From Microbacterium hydrocarbonoxydans (GTDB lineage: Bacteria > Actinomycetota > Actinomycetes > Actinomycetales > Microbacteriaceae), in the NCBI RefSeq assembly GCF_904831005.1, contig NZ_LR882982.1, positions 248,001-312,000 on the forward strand: a stretch of 64,000 nt of DNA, given 5' to 3'. Below are positions 4,770 to 63,266 of this stretch, one piece after another. The notes beneath the pieces were generated by a model. That model had not been told where the DNA came from. It did not search any database and saw only the letters and a list, made by a program, of their open reading frames with translations. The position numbers were made by a program, and so were the translations under genes. Numbering within the stretch: position 1 is the stretch's first letter; each line of letters begins with the position of its first letter.

Positions 4770-5300
4770 TCAGGCGTGGAAGACGGTGTGCAGGTCGCCG
4801 ATCGCCTCGCGGCCGCCCAGGCCGTCGATCTCGAACAGCACCGAGATGCCGACGACGTGGCTTCCCAGGCGCTCGACCAGCTCGCGGCCGGCGGCGAGCG
4901 TGCCACCCGTGGCGAGCACGTCGTCGATCAGCAGCACGCGCGACCCGGCGGGCAGGTCGTCGTGCATCTCGATCGTCGCGGTGCCGTATTCGAGGGCGTA
5001 GTCGACGGATGCCGCGGGGCGGGGCAGCTTGCCGGCCTTGCGGATCGGGATGAGGCCGACGCCCGCGGCGATCGCGGCCGCCCCGGCGAGGATGAAGCCG
5101 CGCGCCTCGATGCCCGCCACCACGTCGAACTGGCCGGCGAACGGGGCGATGATCGCGTCGGTCGTGGCCTGCAGTGCCTCGGCATCCGCGAGCAGAGGGG
5201 TGATGTCGCGGAAGATGATCCCCGCCTCGGGATAGTCCGGGATGCTGCGGATCAGCGATTCGGCGCGGACGAGGGCAGGGGAGAGTTCGGTGTCGGGCAC
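4770..5300 (-). CDS. apt: Adenine phosphoribosyltransferase
   Basis: Salvages adenine with PRPP to give AMP and pyrophosphate in the cytosol. The 176-residue protein has the type I phosphoribosyltransferase PRPP loop VLLIDDVLATGGT (about 120-132), the IRSIPDYPEAGIIFRDITPL start and the GIEARGF segment of APT enzymes. The GTG at 5300 is chosen over an upstream ATG. It matches the family start and lies 6 nt after a -10-like TACCCT (5312-5307), which implies a leaderless mRNA. It lies upstream of purS with an 81-nt gap, so co-transcription is possible. Confidence 0.95.
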   Translation of the reverse strand: MPDTELSPALVRAESLIRSIPDYPEAGIIFRDITPLLADAEALQATTDAIIAPFAGQFDVVAGIEARGFILAGAAAIAAGVGLIPIRKAGKLPRPAASVDYALEYGTATIEMHDDLPAGSRVLLIDDVLATGGTLAAGRELVERLGSHVVGISVLFEIDGLGGREAIGDLHTVFHA

Positions 5301-5426
5301 CGCACAAGGGTACGCCGCGTTGCGGTCGCCGGACGATTCGCGGAGCACCGGACGATTACCGGAGTATTCGGTGCGCATCCTCCGCGATCCGTCTCATGAT
5401 CCGCGAAGCGTCGCCCAGCATGGGGC

Positions 5427-5484
5427 TTGACATTCGTGGGAGCGCTCCCATAGAGTCGCTGCACAGTGCGTGGGAGCGCTCCCA
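5427..5484 (+). promoter_or_regulatory. ceb promoter with two identical CebR operators
   Basis: The -35 TTGACA (5427-5432) and -10 TAGAGT (5451-5456) are 18 nt apart. The perfect 14-bp palindrome TGGGAGCGCTCCCA fills the spacer (5437-5450). An identical copy lies downstream of the expected transcription start (5471-5484), 34 bp centre to centre. This is exactly the CebR operator known from Streptomyces cellobiose operons, so the CebR-like repressor encoded four genes downstream is the expected ligand. Confidence 0.9.
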
Positions 5485-5555
5485 TGGAGACCACCGCACA
5501 CACCCCGAGCACCATCTGCACCACCACCGCACGACCCACCACAAAGGAGTGAACC

Positions 5556-6860
5556 GTGAACACACGCGCCCGCAAGCGGATCCTGACGACAGCAGCCGTC
5601 GCATCCGTCTCCGCCCTGGCCCTCGCCGGCTGTGCCGCCGGTGGCGGCGACGCCGAAGCCGGAGACGAGAAGGTCACCCTGACCGTCACCACCTTCGGCA
5701 CCTTCGGATACGACGACCTCTACGACGAGTACGAGAAGGCGAACCCGAACGTCACGATCGAGGCGACCAACATCGACACCGGCGGCAACGCCCGCACCGA
5801 CGCGTTCACCAAGATCGCGGCCGGCTCCGGCCTCAGCGACGTCGTGGCGATCGAAGAGGGATGGCTCGGCGCCATCATGGACGTCTCCGACACCTTCGTC
5901 GACCTGCGCGACTACGGCATCGAAGACCGCAAGTCCGACTGGGTCGACTGGAAGTACGGACAGGCGACGGATGCCGAGGGCCGCGTGATCGGCTACGGCA
6001 CCGACATCGGTCCGAGCGGCATCTGCTACAACGGCGCAGCCTTCGAGGCCGCCGGCCTGCCGAGCGACCGCGAGTCCGTCGCCGAGCTGCTCAACGGCGA
6101 CTGGGAGAACTACTTCGCCGTCGGCGCCGACTACACGGCGAAGACCGGCAAGGCCTGGTACGACCACTCCGGCTTCGTCTGGAACGCCATGGTCAACCAG
6201 CTCGACGAGGGCTACTACACCACTGACGGCGAGCTGAACGTCGAGGACAACGCCGAACTCAAGGAGCGCTTCGAACTGCTCGGAGCGGCCACCGAGGGCG
6301 GCCAGTCCGCGGCACAGACCGCGTGGGACTGGAACGGCGGCAAGTCGTTCGTCGACGGCACCTTCGCCACGTTCGTCTGCCCGGGCTGGATGCTGGGTGT
6401 CGTGCAGGGTCAGGTCGAGGCCGGCGGCGGCGACGCCTCCACCGGATGGGACTTCGCCGACGTGTTCCCCGGCGGCGCGGCCAACTGGGGTGGGGCGTTC
6501 CTGTCGATCCCCGAGAGCTCGCAGCACAAGGAAGAGGCGGCGAAGCTGGCCGACTGGCTGACGCAGCCCGAGCAGCAGGTCGAGCAGTCCGCCGCGGCGG
6601 GCAACTTCCCGTCGACGATCGGCGCTCAGGAGACGCTCGCCTCGGAGGCCACTCCGAACGAGTTCTTCAACGACGCACCCACCGGCGCGATCCTCGCGGA
6701 GCGTGCGAAGGGCGTCGTCGCCCAGTTCAAGGGCGCCGATGACTCGGTGATCCAGGAGAACGTCTTCGGTCCGGCCCTCAGCGGCCTGGACCGCGGCGAG
6801 ACCGACACCCAGGGCGCCTGGGATGCCGCGGTCGAGCTCCTGAACGAGCTGGTCGACTGA
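5556..6860 (+). CDS. cebE: Cello-oligosaccharide ABC transporter substrate-binding lipoprotein
   Basis: Binds sugar outside the membrane and delivers it to the CebF-CebG permease. It is 434 residues long, with an N-terminal signal (charged RARKR, then a hydrophobic run) and the lipobox ALAGC, so Cys25 would be lipidated. The remainder fits the family 1 extracellular solute-binding fold, with TVTTFGTFGYDDLYDEY early and the WDWNGGKSF region later. It is the first gene of the ceb operon, directly behind two CebR palindromes. The cellobiose specificity is inferred from operator identity and the GH1 enzyme. AAAGGAG precedes the start codon. Confidence 0.92.
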   Translation: MNTRARKRILTTAAVASVSALALAGCAAGGGDAEAGDEKVTLTVTTFGTFGYDDLYDEYEKANPNVTIEATNIDTGGNARTDAFTKIAAGSGLSDVVAIEEGWLGAIMDVSDTFVDLRDYGIEDRKSDWVDWKYGQATDAEGRVIGYGTDIGPSGICYNGAAFEAAGLPSDRESVAELLNGDWENYFAVGADYTAKTGKAWYDHSGFVWNAMVNQLDEGYYTTDGELNVEDNAELKERFELLGAATEGGQSAAQTAWDWNGGKSFVDGTFATFVCPGWMLGVVQGQVEAGGGDASTGWDFADVFPGGAANWGGAFLSIPESSQHKEEAAKLADWLTQPEQQVEQSAAAGNFPSTIGAQETLASEATPNEFFNDAPTGAILAERAKGVVAQFKGADDSVIQENVFGPALSGLDRGETDTQGAWDAAVELLNELVD

Positions 6861-58499: not shown

Positions 58500-58514
58500 C
58501 GCACGTCTCAGACG

Positions 58515-58546
58515 AAGGGCTTCGGATGTCGACATCCGGAGCCCTT
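58515..58546. terminator. Strong terminator between acd and the ECF operon
   Basis: A 14-bp stem AAGGGCTTCGGATG/CATCCGGAGCCCTT with one G-U pair closes the loop TCGA and is followed by TCTCTGTGTCTTG. It lies 16 nt after the acyl-CoA dehydrogenase stop, with the convergent ECF operon ending 60 nt further. Confidence 0.9.
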
Positions 58547-58605
58547 CTCTGTGTCTTGCACCCGCGACGGGAATGGATCGGGTGCCCGGAGTGCAGCGGG
58601 CTGGG

Positions 58606-59184
58606 TCAGCGCGGCAGGCGTGCTCCGACGCCGGCCTTGCGCAGCCGGTCGGCGATCAGGATGCCGAGGGCGGTGGCCCCGAGGCAGCTGGCGAGGGTCA
58701 CGGCGAAGAACGTGATCTGCAGGGAGAGCGCGAAGCTGCCGAGGTTGAACGATGCCCACGCGAGCACCGGGTAGACGATGCCGACGACTGCGGCGCCGAG
58801 GTAGTGCATCCAGGTTCCCCAGTAGCGCCACAGCACGAACAGGAACGGAAGCTCGGTGAACGCGGCCCACCACAGGTTGGTGGCCACGCTGCTGAAGCCG
58901 TACCCCGAGAACGGGACGATGACGAGTCCGGCCAGCAGGCCCACCAGCAGACCCACGAGGGGGCGGCGCAGCAGGCGCAGGGCGATGACCGAGGGAAGCA
59001 GCCACAGACCGGCCAGCCCGACGCTCACGAAGGGGAGACCCGGGAAGAGGATCGTCGAGATCCAGTTCGCCGGGGCCAGCAGCGCCCCACCGGCGACGCC
59101 CAATGCGGCACACGTCAGGAGGATCGCCGTCGGGAAGCGGAAGCGCGAGTGAGACCGCCGACCCGAAGCATCCGTGCCGCTCAC
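58606..59184 (-). CDS. ECF transporter S component, second copy (YkoE-like)
   Basis: A 192-residue membrane protein with five or six helices, last gene of the ECF operon. It is paralogous to the S component at 62724-63266: both share the start LLxCAAxGVAxGxL, the middle segment LRRPLVxLxxxLxA and the C-terminal IADRLRKAGV-like ending. Substrate-binding S components of this type partner with EcfT and EcfA. The start overlaps the SIP gene stop by 4 nt. The substrate is inferred from context to be linked to iron. Confidence 0.83.
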   Translation of the reverse strand: MSGTDASGRRSHSRFRFPTAILLTCAALGVAGGALLAPANWISTILFPGLPFVSVGLAGLWLLPSVIALRLLRRPLVGLLVGLLAGLVIVPFSGYGFSSVATNLWWAAFTELPFLFVLWRYWGTWMHYLGAAVVGIVYPVLAWASFNLGSFALSLQITFFAVTLASCLGATALGILIADRLRKAGVGARLPR

Positions 59185-60056
59185 GAGAGCGGCTCCGCAG
59201 CTGCCTCACGGGCGGCCTTCGACGTGGGCGACGACGCGCCGATCTTCCAGTATCCGCAGAAGCTCACGTCGTTCTTGTCGACCCCGCGCTCGCCGACCAG
59301 GTGCTTGCGGGCGCCTGAGGCGAGAGACTGCTCGCCCGCCGCATACGCGTGGAACGGCGCCTCGGGAAGCGTCAGTTCACGCAGGCGGGCGAGGGCGAAC
59401 GATCCCGGATCGAACTCATGCGGGCGCACGAGCCAGACCACGTCGACGCCGGCAGGATGCGGGAACTCGAGCGCGTCCTCCTCGGCCGGCACCTCGATGA
59501 TCGCGGTGCCCGTGGCGTCGCCGGGCAGCGAGGCGCAGATCGACGCGATCGCGGGCAGCGCCGTCTCGTCGCCGACCAGCACCACGCGGCTCGTTCCACG
59601 CTGCGGGTTGAACGTGAGCCCCTCGTCGATGATCAGCACGTGCTCACCGGGTTCGCATGTCTCGGCCCACCGCGAGGCGGGGCCGGCGGTGCCGTCGGAC
59701 GCCGACCCGTGCAGCACGAAGTCGACGTCGATCTCGGCGCCCGAGAGAGCCGTCGCGGCACGGTAGGCGCGCACGCTGTAGTTGCGCATCACGGGGCGCT
59801 CGCCGTCGGGGATGCGCAGGAACCTCAGGTATCCGAACATCTTGTTCGCCTTCGCGGGGACCCGATCGAGGCCCGCGTCGCCGCCGATCGGCAGGAACAG
59901 ACGGAACCACTGGTCGAAGCCCATCGGGCGGAACTTCTCGATCTCGCCTTCGCCGAGCGTCACCCTCATCCAGTGCTCCGAGAGACGCTCTGTGCGCACC
60001 ACGCTGAGATGGATGAGCTCGGAGGACTCGGGCTTGACCAGTTTGCTGTATGCCAT
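59181..60056 (-). CDS. Siderophore-interacting protein (FAD-dependent ferric reductase)
   Basis: A 291-residue SIP-family protein that reduces ferric iron bound to a siderophore (or heme-like carrier) in the cytosol. The FAD-binding motif RNYSVRAYR (about 98-106) and the NAD(P)H domain with HVLIIDEGLTFNP and VVLVGDETALPAIASI are typical, and the C-terminus holds the GYWKIGASSPTSK ending of the family. It lies between ecfT and the second S component and overlaps the latter by 4 nt. The start at 60056 matches the usual MAYSKLVKP opening. Confidence 0.93.
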   Translation of the reverse strand: MAYSKLVKPESSELIHLSVVRTERLSEHWMRVTLGEGEIEKFRPMGFDQWFRLFLPIGGDAGLDRVPAKANKMFGYLRFLRIPDGERPVMRNYSVRAYRAATALSGAEIDVDFVLHGSASDGTAGPASRWAETCEPGEHVLIIDEGLTFNPQRGTSRVVLVGDETALPAIASICASLPGDATGTAIIEVPAEEDALEFPHPAGVDVVWLVRPHEFDPGSFALARLRELTLPEAPFHAYAAGEQSLASGARKHLVGERGVDKNDVSFCGYWKIGASSPTSKAAREAAAEPLS

Positions 60057-60067
60057 GCGGGCGCCTT

Positions 60068-60886
60068 TCAGGGCAGCTGCCAGGGGAAGAAGGCCGCGAA
60101 GATCGCGGCGGACGCGGCGACGGACGCGACGATGAAGACGGTGTCGCGCACACGGAACGGCACCAGATGCCGCTCGGTGCGCGTCGTGTGGGCGCCGAAG
60201 GCGCGGGAGTCCATGGCGAGTGCCACGCGCTCGGCATGACGGATCGCGCCGGCGAGCAGCGGCACGATGTATCCCCAGCCGCGGGCGACCCGCGCGAACG
60301 GGCCGTTGCCGCCGTGGTGTCCGCGCACGCGGTGCGCGGCGCGGATCACCGAGAGCTCGTACCCGAAGCGCGGGACGAAGCGGAATGCGGCGAGAGCCGT
60401 ATAGCCGATCCGGTAGGGGACCCGCAGCTGCTGCACGCTGGCCCGCACGAGATCGGGGCCGGTGGTGGTCAGTCCGCCGATGAGCGCGAGCGCGATGATC
60501 GCGCCGAGACGCAGAGCCGTCGCGAAGCCGATGGCCAGGGCGCCCTGCCGCAGCGACCAGTCGCTGAGCTGCAGCACGACGGCGGTGTCGCGCACGAGGT
60601 CGGCATCGACCCACAGTGAGAACCCCGCTCCGATGGCGAGCATGCCGATCGGCAGAGCGAGGAACAGCAGGGCGGCGATGCGCCACGTGAGTCGGGAGCC
60701 GAGGGCGATCAGTGCGAGCGACAGCGCCAGGAAGACTGCGGGAGTCGCCAGGTCGCGCACGAAGATGAGCACCAGCATGGCGGGCACGACGCCCGCGACC
60801 TTCGCGAGCGGGTTCAGCCCGTACAGGAACTGACGCGGAGAGGATGCCGTCATGGCGGCATACGGATCGAAGGTCTGCGTGCTCAT
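60068..60886 (-). CDS. ecfT: ECF transporter transmembrane component (EcfT)
   Basis: A 272-residue membrane protein of the CbiQ/EcfT family with five or six helices. The coupling-helix signature SRAFGAH is visible near the C-terminal third (ALAMDSRAFGAHTTRT), after FARVARGWGYIVPLLAGAI. It transmits ATPase motion to the S components. The start overlaps the ATPase gene by 4 nt, and the SIP gene begins 11 nt after its stop. No promoter of its own is seen. Confidence 0.93.
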   Translation of the reverse strand: MSTQTFDPYAAMTASSPRQFLYGLNPLAKVAGVVPAMLVLIFVRDLATPAVFLALSLALIALGSRLTWRIAALLFLALPIGMLAIGAGFSLWVDADLVRDTAVVLQLSDWSLRQGALAIGFATALRLGAIIALALIGGLTTTGPDLVRASVQQLRVPYRIGYTALAAFRFVPRFGYELSVIRAAHRVRGHHGGNGPFARVARGWGYIVPLLAGAIRHAERVALAMDSRAFGAHTTRTERHLVPFRVRDTVFIVASVAASAAIFAAFFPWQLP

Positions 60887-62640
60887 GCGATCGCCTGCCC
60901 CGCCGCGGCCAGCACGCGTTGCAGCGGCGGAAGCCGGAGCCCCGCCTCGAGGAAGGGCGCCTCGTCGCGGAAGAGTACGTCCGTGCGATCGGCGGCGTGC
61001 ACACGTCCGTCCTTCAGGATCATGGTGTGCGACGTGTGCTCGGCGACGAGCTGCAGGTCATGCGTCACGATGACGATCGTGGTGCCCTCGTCGCGCAGAT
61101 CGTGCAGCAGCGCGAGGAGCTCGGATGCTCGGGCGCGATCCTGTCCGAACGTCGGCTCGTCGAGGGCGAGCACTCTCGGGCGCGTGATCAGTGCGGTACC
61201 GACCGACAGACGGCGCTTCTCACCCCCTGAGAGCAGGAAGGGATGCACGCCGGCCTTGGCCTCGAGGCCGAAGCGCGTGAGCATGGCATCGACGCGCTCG
61301 CCGACTTCGGCATCCGGTGTGTGCCGAAGCCTGAGCCCGTGCGCGAGCTCGTCGAAGACCGTGTGCGCGATGAACTGGTGCTCCGGATTCTGGAAGACGA
61401 AGCCGATGCGGTTCGAGAGCTCGCGCGGCGAGGCTGATCCCGGGTCGATGCCGTCGACCGTCACCTGCCGCGTGGGTGGCGCGACGACGCCGGCGAGGGC
61501 CTGCAGCAGAGTGGTCTTGCCCGCGCCGTTGGTGCCGATGATGGCGGTGAGGGTGCCCGGTCGGATGTCGAGGTCGATGCCGTGCAGGATCTCGGTGCGG
61601 CGGCGACGCACAGTGAGCCCCCGGGTGCTGATGATCGGGGTCTTGTGGTCGTTCTCAGTCCTCGAGCGAGCGGTCCCGGCCGCATCGGCGCGTTTCGTCT
61701 CGTCGCTGCGGTCCTCGCTCGACGAGCGGGTGCTCCCCTCGGTCGTCGAGCGAGCGGAGCGAGACGAAACGCGGTGCGTCGGGGCGGATGCCAGCGCTGC
61801 GGCGAGCTCCTCGGGGGTGAGCGGCAGCTCGTCGAGGTCGAGGGTTCCGGCATCCCGCATCCGCAGCGCCGCCAGAGTGGCCCCGGGCAGCCAGACCCCC
61901 ATCGAGGCGAGCTCAGCGGCGTGAGCGCGGATGACGTCGGCGGGCGGGCCGTCGAACGCGACCCGGCCTGCGCGATCGAGCACGATCGTGCGGGTGAGGA
62001 AGCCCATGGCCGCATCGAGGTTGTGCTCGACGAGAAGGATGCCGCGATCGCCGGCCGCGACGACGTCGCTCAACGCGGCATACACATCGTCGATGCCCTG
62101 AGGGTCGAGGTTCGCGGTGGGTTCGTCGAGCACGATGAGCGGCGAGCCCATGGCCAGGGCGCATGCGATCGCGAGCCGCTGTCGACCGCCTCCGGAGAGC
62201 CGGTCGGGGTTCTCGTCACGACGATCCCACAAGCCGACGCGCCGCACCGCGTCTTCCGTACGCCGGTGCACCTCGTCGAGGGGCAGTCGCAGATTCTCCG
62301 GGCCGAAGGCGACCTCGTCGTAGACCGTGCCGGTGACGATCTGGGCATCCGGATCCTGGAACACCATCGCGACCCGTGTGCTCAGCTCGGCCGTGGCGCT
62401 GCGCGCAGTGTCGAGCCCTCCGGCTTCGACCGTGCCGGTCATGGCGGCCGGCACGGCATGCGGGATGAGCCCGTTGAGCGCGAGCGTCAGCGTGGATTTG
62501 CCCGATCCCGAGGGGCCGAGCAGCAGCACGACCTCGCCGGCGGCGATGTCGAACGTGACGCCCTGGGGAGAGGGGTGCACGGCATCGGCGTGGGTGATCG
62601 TGAGGTCACGCACGCGGAGAAGAGGCGCAGATGAGCGCAC
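60883..62640 (-). CDS. ECF transporter fused ATPase (two ABC domains)
   Basis: A 585-residue protein with two ABC ATPase domains, as in YkoD. Domain 1 has Walker [10 protein letters not shown] (42-50), LSGGGRQR and Walker B IVLDEPTANLDP. Domain 2 has GTNGAGKTT, LSGGEKRRLS and VLALDEPTFG. The linker (about 280-325) is Ser/Arg/Glu-rich and includes 27 residues encoded by a dispersed repeat. The GTG at 62640 lies below an IdeR/DtxR-like box. It is the first gene of the ATPase-EcfT-SIP-S operon. Confidence 0.93.
   Translation of the reverse strand: MRSSAPLLRVRDLTITHADAVHPSPQGVTFDIAAGEVVLLLGPSGSGKSTLTLALNGLIPHAVPAAMTGTVEAGGLDTARSATAELSTRVAMVFQDPDAQIVTGTVYDEVAFGPENLRLPLDEVHRRTEDAVRRVGLWDRRDENPDRLSGGGRQRLAIACALAMGSPLIVLDEPTANLDPQGIDDVYAALSDVVAAGDRGILLVEHNLDAAMGFLTRTIVLDRAGRVAFDGPPADVIRAHAAELASMGVWLPGATLAALRMRDAGTLDLDELPLTPEELAAALASAPTHRVSSRSARSTTEGSTRSSSEDRSDETKRADAAGTARSRTENDHKTPIISTRGLTVRRRRTEILHGIDLDIRPGTLTAIIGTNGAGKTTLLQALAGVVAPPTRQVTVDGIDPGSASPRELSNRIGFVFQNPEHQFIAHTVFDELAHGLRLRHTPDAEVGERVDAMLTRFGLEAKAGVHPFLLSGGEKRRLSVGTALITRPRVLALDEPTFGQDRARASELLALLHDLRDEGTTIVIVTHDLQLVAEHTSHTMILKDGRVHAADRTDVLFRDEAPFLEAGLRLPPLQRVLAAAGQAIA
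61691..61771. repeat. Dispersed inverted-repeat element inserted in frame in the ECF ATPase
   Basis: The element starts CGTTTCGTCTCG and ends CGAGACGAAACG, perfect 12-bp inverted ends, and is 81 bp long, exactly 27 codons. It encodes RVSSRSARSTTEG followed by STRSSSEDRSDETKR in the linker between the two ATPase domains. The end sequences match the arms of the elements at 20831-20934 and 42907-43270. The insertion keeps the frame and lies where length variation is tolerated. Confidence 0.9.
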
Positions 62641-62678
62641 GGCATAACCCCGGTTCTGCGGATCGGTACCGTACTAAC

Positions 62679-62697
62679 TTAGCTGAGCCTTACCTGA
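62679..62697. promoter_or_regulatory. IdeR/DtxR-like iron box upstream of the ECF ATPase
   Basis: TTAGCTGAGCCTTACCTGA matches the 19-bp IdeR/DtxR consensus TTAGGTTAGCCTAACCTAA at 15 positions. It lies 39 nt before the ATPase start codon and overlaps the presumed -35/-10 spacer on the minus strand (GTGACA at 62706-62701). Repression by the iron-loaded regulator would switch the operon on under iron limitation. Confidence 0.82.
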
Positions 62698-62723
62698 ATT
62701 GTCACGGCGCTCAGGTGGCCCGC

Positions 62724-63266
62724 TCAGCGTCGGGCGACGCCCGCGCGGGAGAGCGCGGACCCGATCGCGAGTCCGACAGCCGTCCAGGCGAGGGGGCCGA
62801 GCACGGCGATCACGAGATAGGCGATCTGCACCCACGGGGCGAAGGTCGCGAGGTCGACCGCGAAGAAGACCACGACCGCGACGATCAGCCCGATCACACC
62901 GGCCGAGATGAAGAAGCGCCAGGCCCCCCACGAGCGATAGCGGGTGAGGGCGGCGATCCCCTCCTGGATCGCGCCGAAGAGCAGCGCCGTGCCGATGAAG
63001 CGCAGCGCCCACGCCGGGTTGAAAGCGCTCGAGATGAGCGCGGCGATCAGGTGGGTGATCAGGGCGACGAGCGGGCGACGCAGCACCTCCTGGGCGATGA
63101 TGCCGGGCAGCACGTGCGACCCCAGCACGAGCCCGTAGAGGTAGGGGGTGAGCACGATCACGCCCGGCGTGATGAGGCCGGCGATCCCGCCGAGGATGCC
63201 GGTGGCGACGCCGATCGCGGCGCAGATCAGCAGCACGCGGGTCGTCAGGACGGGGGAGGGGGCCAC
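62724..63266 (-). CDS. ECF transporter S component, first copy (YkoE-like)
   Basis: A 180-residue membrane protein with five or six helices, upstream of the fused ATPase and transcribed the same way. It resembles the second S component in the operon and YkoE-type S proteins. The GTG at 63266 lies 6 nt after TAGGCT (63278-63273), so it has its own leaderless promoter. The iron box lies in the 83-nt gap to the ATPase gene, so this gene may be expressed separately from the rest. The substrate is unknown. Confidence 0.83.
   Translation of the reverse strand: MAPSPVLTTRVLLICAAIGVATGILGGIAGLITPGVIVLTPYLYGLVLGSHVLPGIIAQEVLRRPLVALITHLIAALISSAFNPAWALRFIGTALLFGAIQEGIAALTRYRSWGAWRFFISAGVIGLIVAVVVFFAVDLATFAPWVQIAYLVIAVLGPLAWTAVGLAIGSALSRAGVARR

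Follow-up and report, generated by a model that had tools for sequence, protein, structure and literature searches.

A stretch of 64,000 nucleotides from the genome of Microbacterium hydrocarbonoxydans (NCBI RefSeq assembly GCF_904831005.1, contig NZ_LR882982.1, positions 248,001 to 312,000 of the forward strand; hereafter the window, numbered from its first letter) carries an operon that probably encodes an IdeR-controlled importer of an iron carrier, built as an energy-coupling factor (ECF) transporter, also known as a type III ATP-binding cassette (ABC) importer. A probability of about 0.78 is assigned to this reading. The operon lies on the minus strand in the order S component (S1), IdeR-type box, fused ATPase, EcfT, siderophore-interacting protein (SIP), and second S component (S2), as read from open reading frames and Pfam profiles. 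On balance, S2 together with SIP would handle a ferric siderophore, and S1 possibly serves heme or a second siderophore. Judged by sequence, the operon and its relatives are a conserved iron-boxed ECF family that is distinct from the thiamine transporter YkoEDC. The reading is drawn from a box that stands across loci in the place of a thiamine pyrophosphate (TPP) riboswitch, from a riboswitched ykoEDC already present elsewhere in the same genome, from a separate clade of S components that have lost Gln95 and Asp131, from an exclusive clade of ECF-linked SIPs and the absence of S2 without SIP in the named loci described below, and from an IrtA/IrtB-like pair beside a related module and similar boxes at four FecCD pairs.

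All parts of an ECF transporter are present (PF09819 twice, PF02361 and PF00005 twice). S1 (62724-63266; 180 aa; PF09819, 48 bits) lies 5' of the box and shares 33 percent identity with S2 (58606-59184; 192 aa; PF09819, 43 bits). Between them on the same minus strand lie the fused ECF ATPase (60883-62640; 585 aa), which has two ABC_tran (PF00005) stretches and scores above the cut-off of two NCBIfam models for ECF ATPases, and EcfT of the CbiQ family (60068-60886; 272 aa; PF02361), for which the NCBIfam CbiQ model stays under its cut-off. The next gene (59181-60056; 291 aa) encodes a SIP, by its domains a siderophore-interacting reductase dependent on flavin adenine dinucleotide (FAD), with PF08021 (FAD_binding_9) and PF04954. 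The ATPase and EcfT frames overlap by 4 nt, EcfT and SIP lie 11 nt apart, and SIP and S2 overlap by 4 nt. Walker A, signature, and Walker B sequences can be read from the translation of both ATPase domains, as can RNYSVR and YWKIG from that of SIP, the names of these ATPase and SIP motifs being presumptive. No FecCD permease or binding protein was found among the five genes of the operon with Pfam profiles. An earlier reading of the sequence alone (the first-pass annotation) had described this gene order with its overlaps and 11-nt gap and a 15-of-19 match to the IdeR/DtxR box, and these observations are confirmed; its interpretation as a whole is partly supported.

The box (62679-62697, minus strand) begins 26 nt past the S1 stop codon and ends 38 nt ahead of the ATPase start, and it matches what is presumably the 19-bp IdeR/DtxR consensus at 15 of 19 positions when both centre bases are allowed, or at 14 of 19 against a single consensus string. 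Scored against the single string, it is the sole site of at least 12 in the window; in 20 Markov shuffles of the 64 kb, a score of 12 was reached at 33 sites and a score of 13 at one. A search at no more than three mismatches returned nothing in the window, as expected from the four mismatches of the box. The claim that the box covers the promoter holds for ATPase-EcfT-SIP-S2, upstream of which it lies, but not for S1, upstream of which the highest score is 10/19. Two DtxR-family proteins are encoded in the genome.

Related modules were compared in three sets of loci, and the first-pass annotation had proposed such a survey of upstream boxes. The first set, the named loci, comprises the best 80 of 388, 76 of them titled Microbacterium, and is biased to near relatives. 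All 74 named loci with 250 nt of sequence 5' of the ATPase carry a box of 13-16/19 there, starting 50-59 nt ahead of the ATPase match in 41 of the 74, and the top score 5' of S1 is 12. The gap between the S1 and ATPase matches is 33-212 nt in 63 of these 74 loci and 489-4824 nt in the remaining 11, which indicates that S1 can be detached from the box. Given this displacement and the position of the box downstream of S1, S1 is best treated as part of the neighbourhood, and the box speaks for control of ATPase-EcfT-SIP-S2 only. The second set consists of the 22 Microbacteriaceae loci that have an ATPase-EcfT module (A-T) among 32 fetched, one of them from the same genus as the window, and the third consists of 19 wider loci hand-picked for variety from class and order draws, leaving out one on a short contig (L236; L and G numbers denote loci and genomes) and two with an S gene but no module (L241 and L242).

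Under a uniform rule, a box of at least 13/19 stands before the module in 74 of 77 loci of the named set, 13 of 22 of the Microbacteriaceae set, and 17 of 19 of the wider set, whereas none turned up in 19 canonical ykoEDC loci or in 137 single shuffles (one per locus). Three of the 80 named loci lack a usable upstream stretch, and the three that score under 13 (L129, L137 and L153) start near a contig end; among the wider loci, L246 is scored as a miss although a 15/19 box lies ~350 nt before its S match. Among the 21 other Microbacteriaceae module loci, nine have a box of at least 13 before S-A-T, two are arranged as box-A-T-S2 (L065 and L066), and one has the box before A only (L061). A perfect 19/19 box precedes the S gene of L239, and transposase- and resolvase-like genes, named by eye, lie directly 5' of this box and S gene (L239 2761-7036). 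By these controls the box is more than chance. A conserved 19-bp box thus lies in the promoter region, and at the level of sequence the operon qualifies as a putative member of an IdeR/DtxR regulon.

The closest known relative by type is YkoEDC (Bacillus subtilis YkoE, 5EDL), with which the operon shares the Pfam family of the S components, the fused two-domain ATPase, and the CbiQ-type T component; the YkoEDC-like order S-A-T is found in 17 of 21 non-Microbacterium Microbacteriaceae loci. The operon differs from YkoEDC in its IdeR box instead of a TPP riboswitch, in lost pocket contacts, in its two S components and embedded SIP, and in its separate clade. The shared family and module type favour import of thiamine or hydroxymethylpyrimidine (HMP) under iron control, for example in sparing the iron-sulfur enzyme ThiC, as does a profile of the S component that matches only YkoE (5edl) significantly among solved structures. 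However, the genome already has a separate canonical ykoE-D-C with a TPP riboswitch immediately ahead of it, and no such riboswitch was found in the window or in nine iron-type loci scanned, versus 9 of 9 canonical loci scanned out of 18; no Rfam family at all exceeded its cut-off in the window or in the nine iron-type loci. On a midpoint-rooted tree of 98 S sequences, all 19 canonical YkoE form one clade with support of 1.0. The rest of the tree (support 0.87) consists of the 79 iron-type rows, of which at least four are second copies of one gene.

The thiamine contacts of B. subtilis YkoE are Tyr46, Trp49, Glu77, Gln95, and Asp131, and the substitution Q95W abolished binding, according to the part of the source consulted (PMC5037267). 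In an alignment of the same rows, Gln or Glu at position 95 is present in 19 of 19 canonical versus 3 of 79 iron-type rows, and Asp or Glu at position 131 in 17 of 19 versus 2 of 79, the latter two being one gene present twice; Glu77 provides no test, given that 17 of 19 canonical rows have Ser there. The window S1 has Phe and Val at positions 95 and 131 and S2 has Trp and Ala, so that neither retains the polar thiamine contacts. All 76 Microbacterium-type S1 sequences have His in place of Trp49, as in the window, and this type has Phe or Ile at position 95; of the other S1, 20 of 21 have Tyr in place of Trp49. Microbacterium-type S2 has Trp95 in 48 of 49 sequences and keeps Trp49 in 49 of 49, again as in the window, after a length filter had dropped 2 of 51 S2 and 1 of 19 canonical sequences from the comparison. 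The Trp49 of S2 is a point in favour of thiamine, as is the finding, in the portion of the YkoE study seen, that alanine at position 46, 77, 95 or 131 cut thiamine binding just 2- to 5-fold (PMC5037267). Since Q95W abolishes binding and alanine only weakens it, the pocket argument carries most weight at position 95 of S2, where that very Trp is found. Thiamine import was rejected on regulation, pocket residues, and phylogeny, the coupled SIP also speaking against it, and is considered highly improbable. Judged by these features, S1 and S2 are not ordinary YkoE but members of a separate clade without the polar thiamine contacts; a grouping with YkoE, which the first-pass annotation had named as part of an outcome that would undercut its proposal, was looked for and not found. 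Source names of S2 relatives are generic ('ECF transporter S component', 'hypothetical protein') among the 120 of 294 matches listed.

SIPs are known as siderophore reductases, and the window SIP gives profile matches to ViuB, 4yhb, and the N-terminal part of IrtA chains. A midpoint-rooted tree was built from 48 SIPs, taken from 13 of the 80 named loci and from the other SIP loci of this comparison. In it, all 22 ECF-linked SIPs, meaning those encoded no more than 3 kb from an ECF T or S match, group in one exclusive clade with support of 0.86. This clade spans four genera of two families, namely Microbacterium, two other Microbacteriaceae genera, and one genus of another family. Both S2 and SIP are present in 49 of the 80 named loci, SIP only in 20, neither in 11, and S2 only in none; for the 70 loci with room downstream the counts are 43, 18, 9, and 0, although these loci are related and the co-occurrences are not independent events. 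Judged by tree and neighbourhood, SIP is dedicated to the ECF module in most Microbacterium loci. Elsewhere, A-T-S2 is found without an adjacent SIP (L065 and L066), and since the module often occurs without SIP, the reductase is not required. These modules lend some weight to import of another iron-linked micronutrient, such as cobalamin, a bare metal ion, or flavin for the reductase, in which case SIP would be a neighbour of convenience, given also that SIP uses FAD and that iron regulation by itself names no substrate. This explanation is nevertheless considered improbable, as the ECF-linked SIP clade tracks the module throughout the genera and families named above, other members have an IrtAB-type pair or a heme oxygenase as neighbours, and the Rfam scans above returned no family.

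Further clues to the substrate come from the neighbours of related modules. In L235, an iron-boxed S-A-T is followed directly by two half-ABC proteins that are IrtA/IrtB-like: the best match of the first is IrtA (4e-121), and IrtB is the best half-size match of the second (4e-80), behind full-length eukaryotic ABCB proteins. Similar genes are present in L246 and L239, and their products match eukaryotic ABCB proteins first and IrtA next. In L057 (genome G064), a box (13/19), a heme oxygenase, and S1, together at 4784-6136, are followed by A and T on one strand, the single natural gene order that ties this S family to heme. The IrtAB-type pair, the heme oxygenase, and the SIP matches point to iron carriers, naming none.

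The module may instead import heme, with S1, and perhaps S2, binding it through an aromatic residue at the pocket floor (His in S1 of Microbacterium and Tyr in the majority of other S1) and SIP as an auxiliary reductase. The arrangement in G064 and the conservation of this His and Tyr are in keeping with such a role, as is the iron-regulated, heme-specific ECF transporter of Staphylococcus lugdunensis, whose spectrum suggests His coordination in the part of the source available (PMC7299338). A heme oxygenase was, however, rejected as a general neighbour, being beside the module in just 1 of 168 loci (some only ~3 kb long) and in none of 20 further loci. A heme oxygenase is encoded somewhere in 73 of 120 Microbacteriaceae genomes, and that of the window genome lies apart from the operon, with no box of at least 13 within the 11 kb read there. 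S2 has Trp rather than His or Tyr at the Trp49 position, and SIPs act on siderophores; heme as the substrate of the module is considered unlikely.

The first-pass annotation had placed the operon in the role of the usual FecCD system, and this part of its interpretation does not stand. Eight FecCD matches over the cut-off form four pairs in the window genome, each behind a 14-15/19 box, and the ECF module was rejected as a FecCD replacement. A SIP lies beside three of the four pairs, and three of the four other strong SIP matches of the genome adjoin FecCD pairs; the fourth pair (L276 4290-6439; G000:C1:662491-664477) has a 15/19 box and no SIP match of the genome alongside. The predicted ECF importer is an addition to the FecCD systems, not a replacement. 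These FecBCD(E)-SIP operons resemble the ECF operon in combining an iron box, an ABC importer, and, in three of four cases, a SIP, but have FecCD permeases instead of S and T components and SIPs from other clades.

A single energising module serving two S proteins, as the first-pass annotation had suggested, is supported by T profile searches, which returned one match at E<=1e-15 in the window genome (G000) and one in G483. The latter genome has four iron-type S genes, two of which flank SIP (L240) and two of which lie elsewhere. In L240 (7749-8582), the SIP between the two S genes is in two overlapping frames, perhaps owing to a frameshift. G077 and G093 each have an S gene alone on a different contig from the module, and the lone S gene of G077 (L068) has its own 14/19 box. 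Nothing recurrent was recognised in the gene lists of the orphan-S neighbourhoods.

In the proposed mechanism, a DtxR/IdeR-family repressor would leave the box when iron is scarce, allowing ATPase-EcfT-SIP-S2 to be made. On the outside, the carrier would be bound by S2 (and S1), which would then dock on EcfT, topple, and deliver it to the inside at the expense of ATP, and SIP would reduce Fe(III) and free Fe(II). The ATPase-EcfT pair belongs to a distinct clade. A broader proposal, advanced tentatively and at somewhat less than even odds, is that a widespread actinobacterial branch of the YkoE family has moved from vitamin to iron-carrier import and that ECF-type importers of ferric siderophores, the first of their kind, belong to it. 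Several exchangeable S components (a siderophore-type S2 with SIP and a heme-type S1) would share one A-T motor under IdeR control, with coupling to IrtAB-type half-transporters in some lineages. If true, siderophores would be added to the substrates of ECF transporters, the re-tooling of a thiamine-binding S component would be demonstrated, and a test of S-protein sharing in actinobacteria would be at hand.

To our knowledge, few ECF-type pumps for iron carriers have been described. Similar to the operon, LhaSTA, the heme ECF transporter of S. lugdunensis, is an iron-regulated ECF importer for iron acquisition, but it has a Fur box, one S gene, and no SIP mentioned in the part of the source consulted (PMC7299338). 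The same portion describes ECF transporters for vitamins, nickel/cobalt, and heme (PMC7299338). The siderophore importers IrtAB and YbtPQ are comparable in that a SIP-type domain is part of IrtA and an IrtA/IrtB-like pair adjoins the module in L235, but they are exporter-fold ABC half-transporters without S or T components. Bifidobacterium sifABCDE was rejected as a counterpart, as FtsX-like permeases are described and 'ECF' is not mentioned in the text available. Among the matches listed from open-licence PMC titles and abstract openings, none links an ECF transporter to siderophore uptake or to IdeR/DtxR, and no ECF–siderophore or ECF–IdeR/DtxR link appears in the available portions of PMC8269222, PMC7761784, PMC7181669 or PMC5449479.

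Several observations weigh against an IdeR-controlled importer of an iron carrier, beginning with the size of a ferric siderophore, which would be a bulky ligand for a fold that as a rule accommodates vitamins. No IucA/IucC-type synthetase for siderophores made independently of non-ribosomal peptide synthetases was found in the genome, other routes of biosynthesis not having been searched. Outside Microbacterium, a SIP beside the module is uncommon, with 1 case in 21 Microbacteriaceae loci and 3 in 18 wider loci; among the 80 named loci, 11 show no SIP, though two of these are too short to tell. S1 does not lie behind the box in Microbacterium, and in 9 of the 22 Microbacteriaceae loci no box of at least 13 stands 5' of S or A, one of them being L057, where the box precedes the heme oxygenase. 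When the upstream stretch of each of 74 named loci was shuffled 50 times, the highest score was 13 in seven of them and never 14, and isolated 13/19 matches lie at unrelated places (for example in L051, L053, L064, and L204). Among 332 other genes of 33 fetched loci, a box was found for 11, and some of these are divergent genes with an intergenic stretch in common. A single 13 therefore means little, and it is recurrence at one place that counts as evidence. The Trp49 of S2 and the mild effect of alanine substitutions in YkoE, given above, belong on the same side.

A predicted terminator-like hairpin with 15 pairs (58514-58547, scored on the plus strand) lies beyond the end of S2 between convergent genes, in a scan that returned two terminator-like sites versus 1.1 expected; a sigma-70 promoter scan found no site. 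Within the ATPase gene, in the linker between the ABC domains, nested direct and inverted repeats are present at 61654-61773, with the arms CGCGTTTCGTCTCG and CGAGACGAAACGCG; they resemble a palindromic repeat element that the coding sequence tolerates. Their 24-nt core (61747-61770) has no second copy in the window at up to three mismatches. In the Microbacterium locus L119 (5552-6030), S1 is seemingly split into two frames, and the same locus is without a SIP or S2 match. The ATPase and EcfT are joined in a single fused reading frame in some relatives (L139 6144-8804, L143 6108-8792, and L246 8130-10616).

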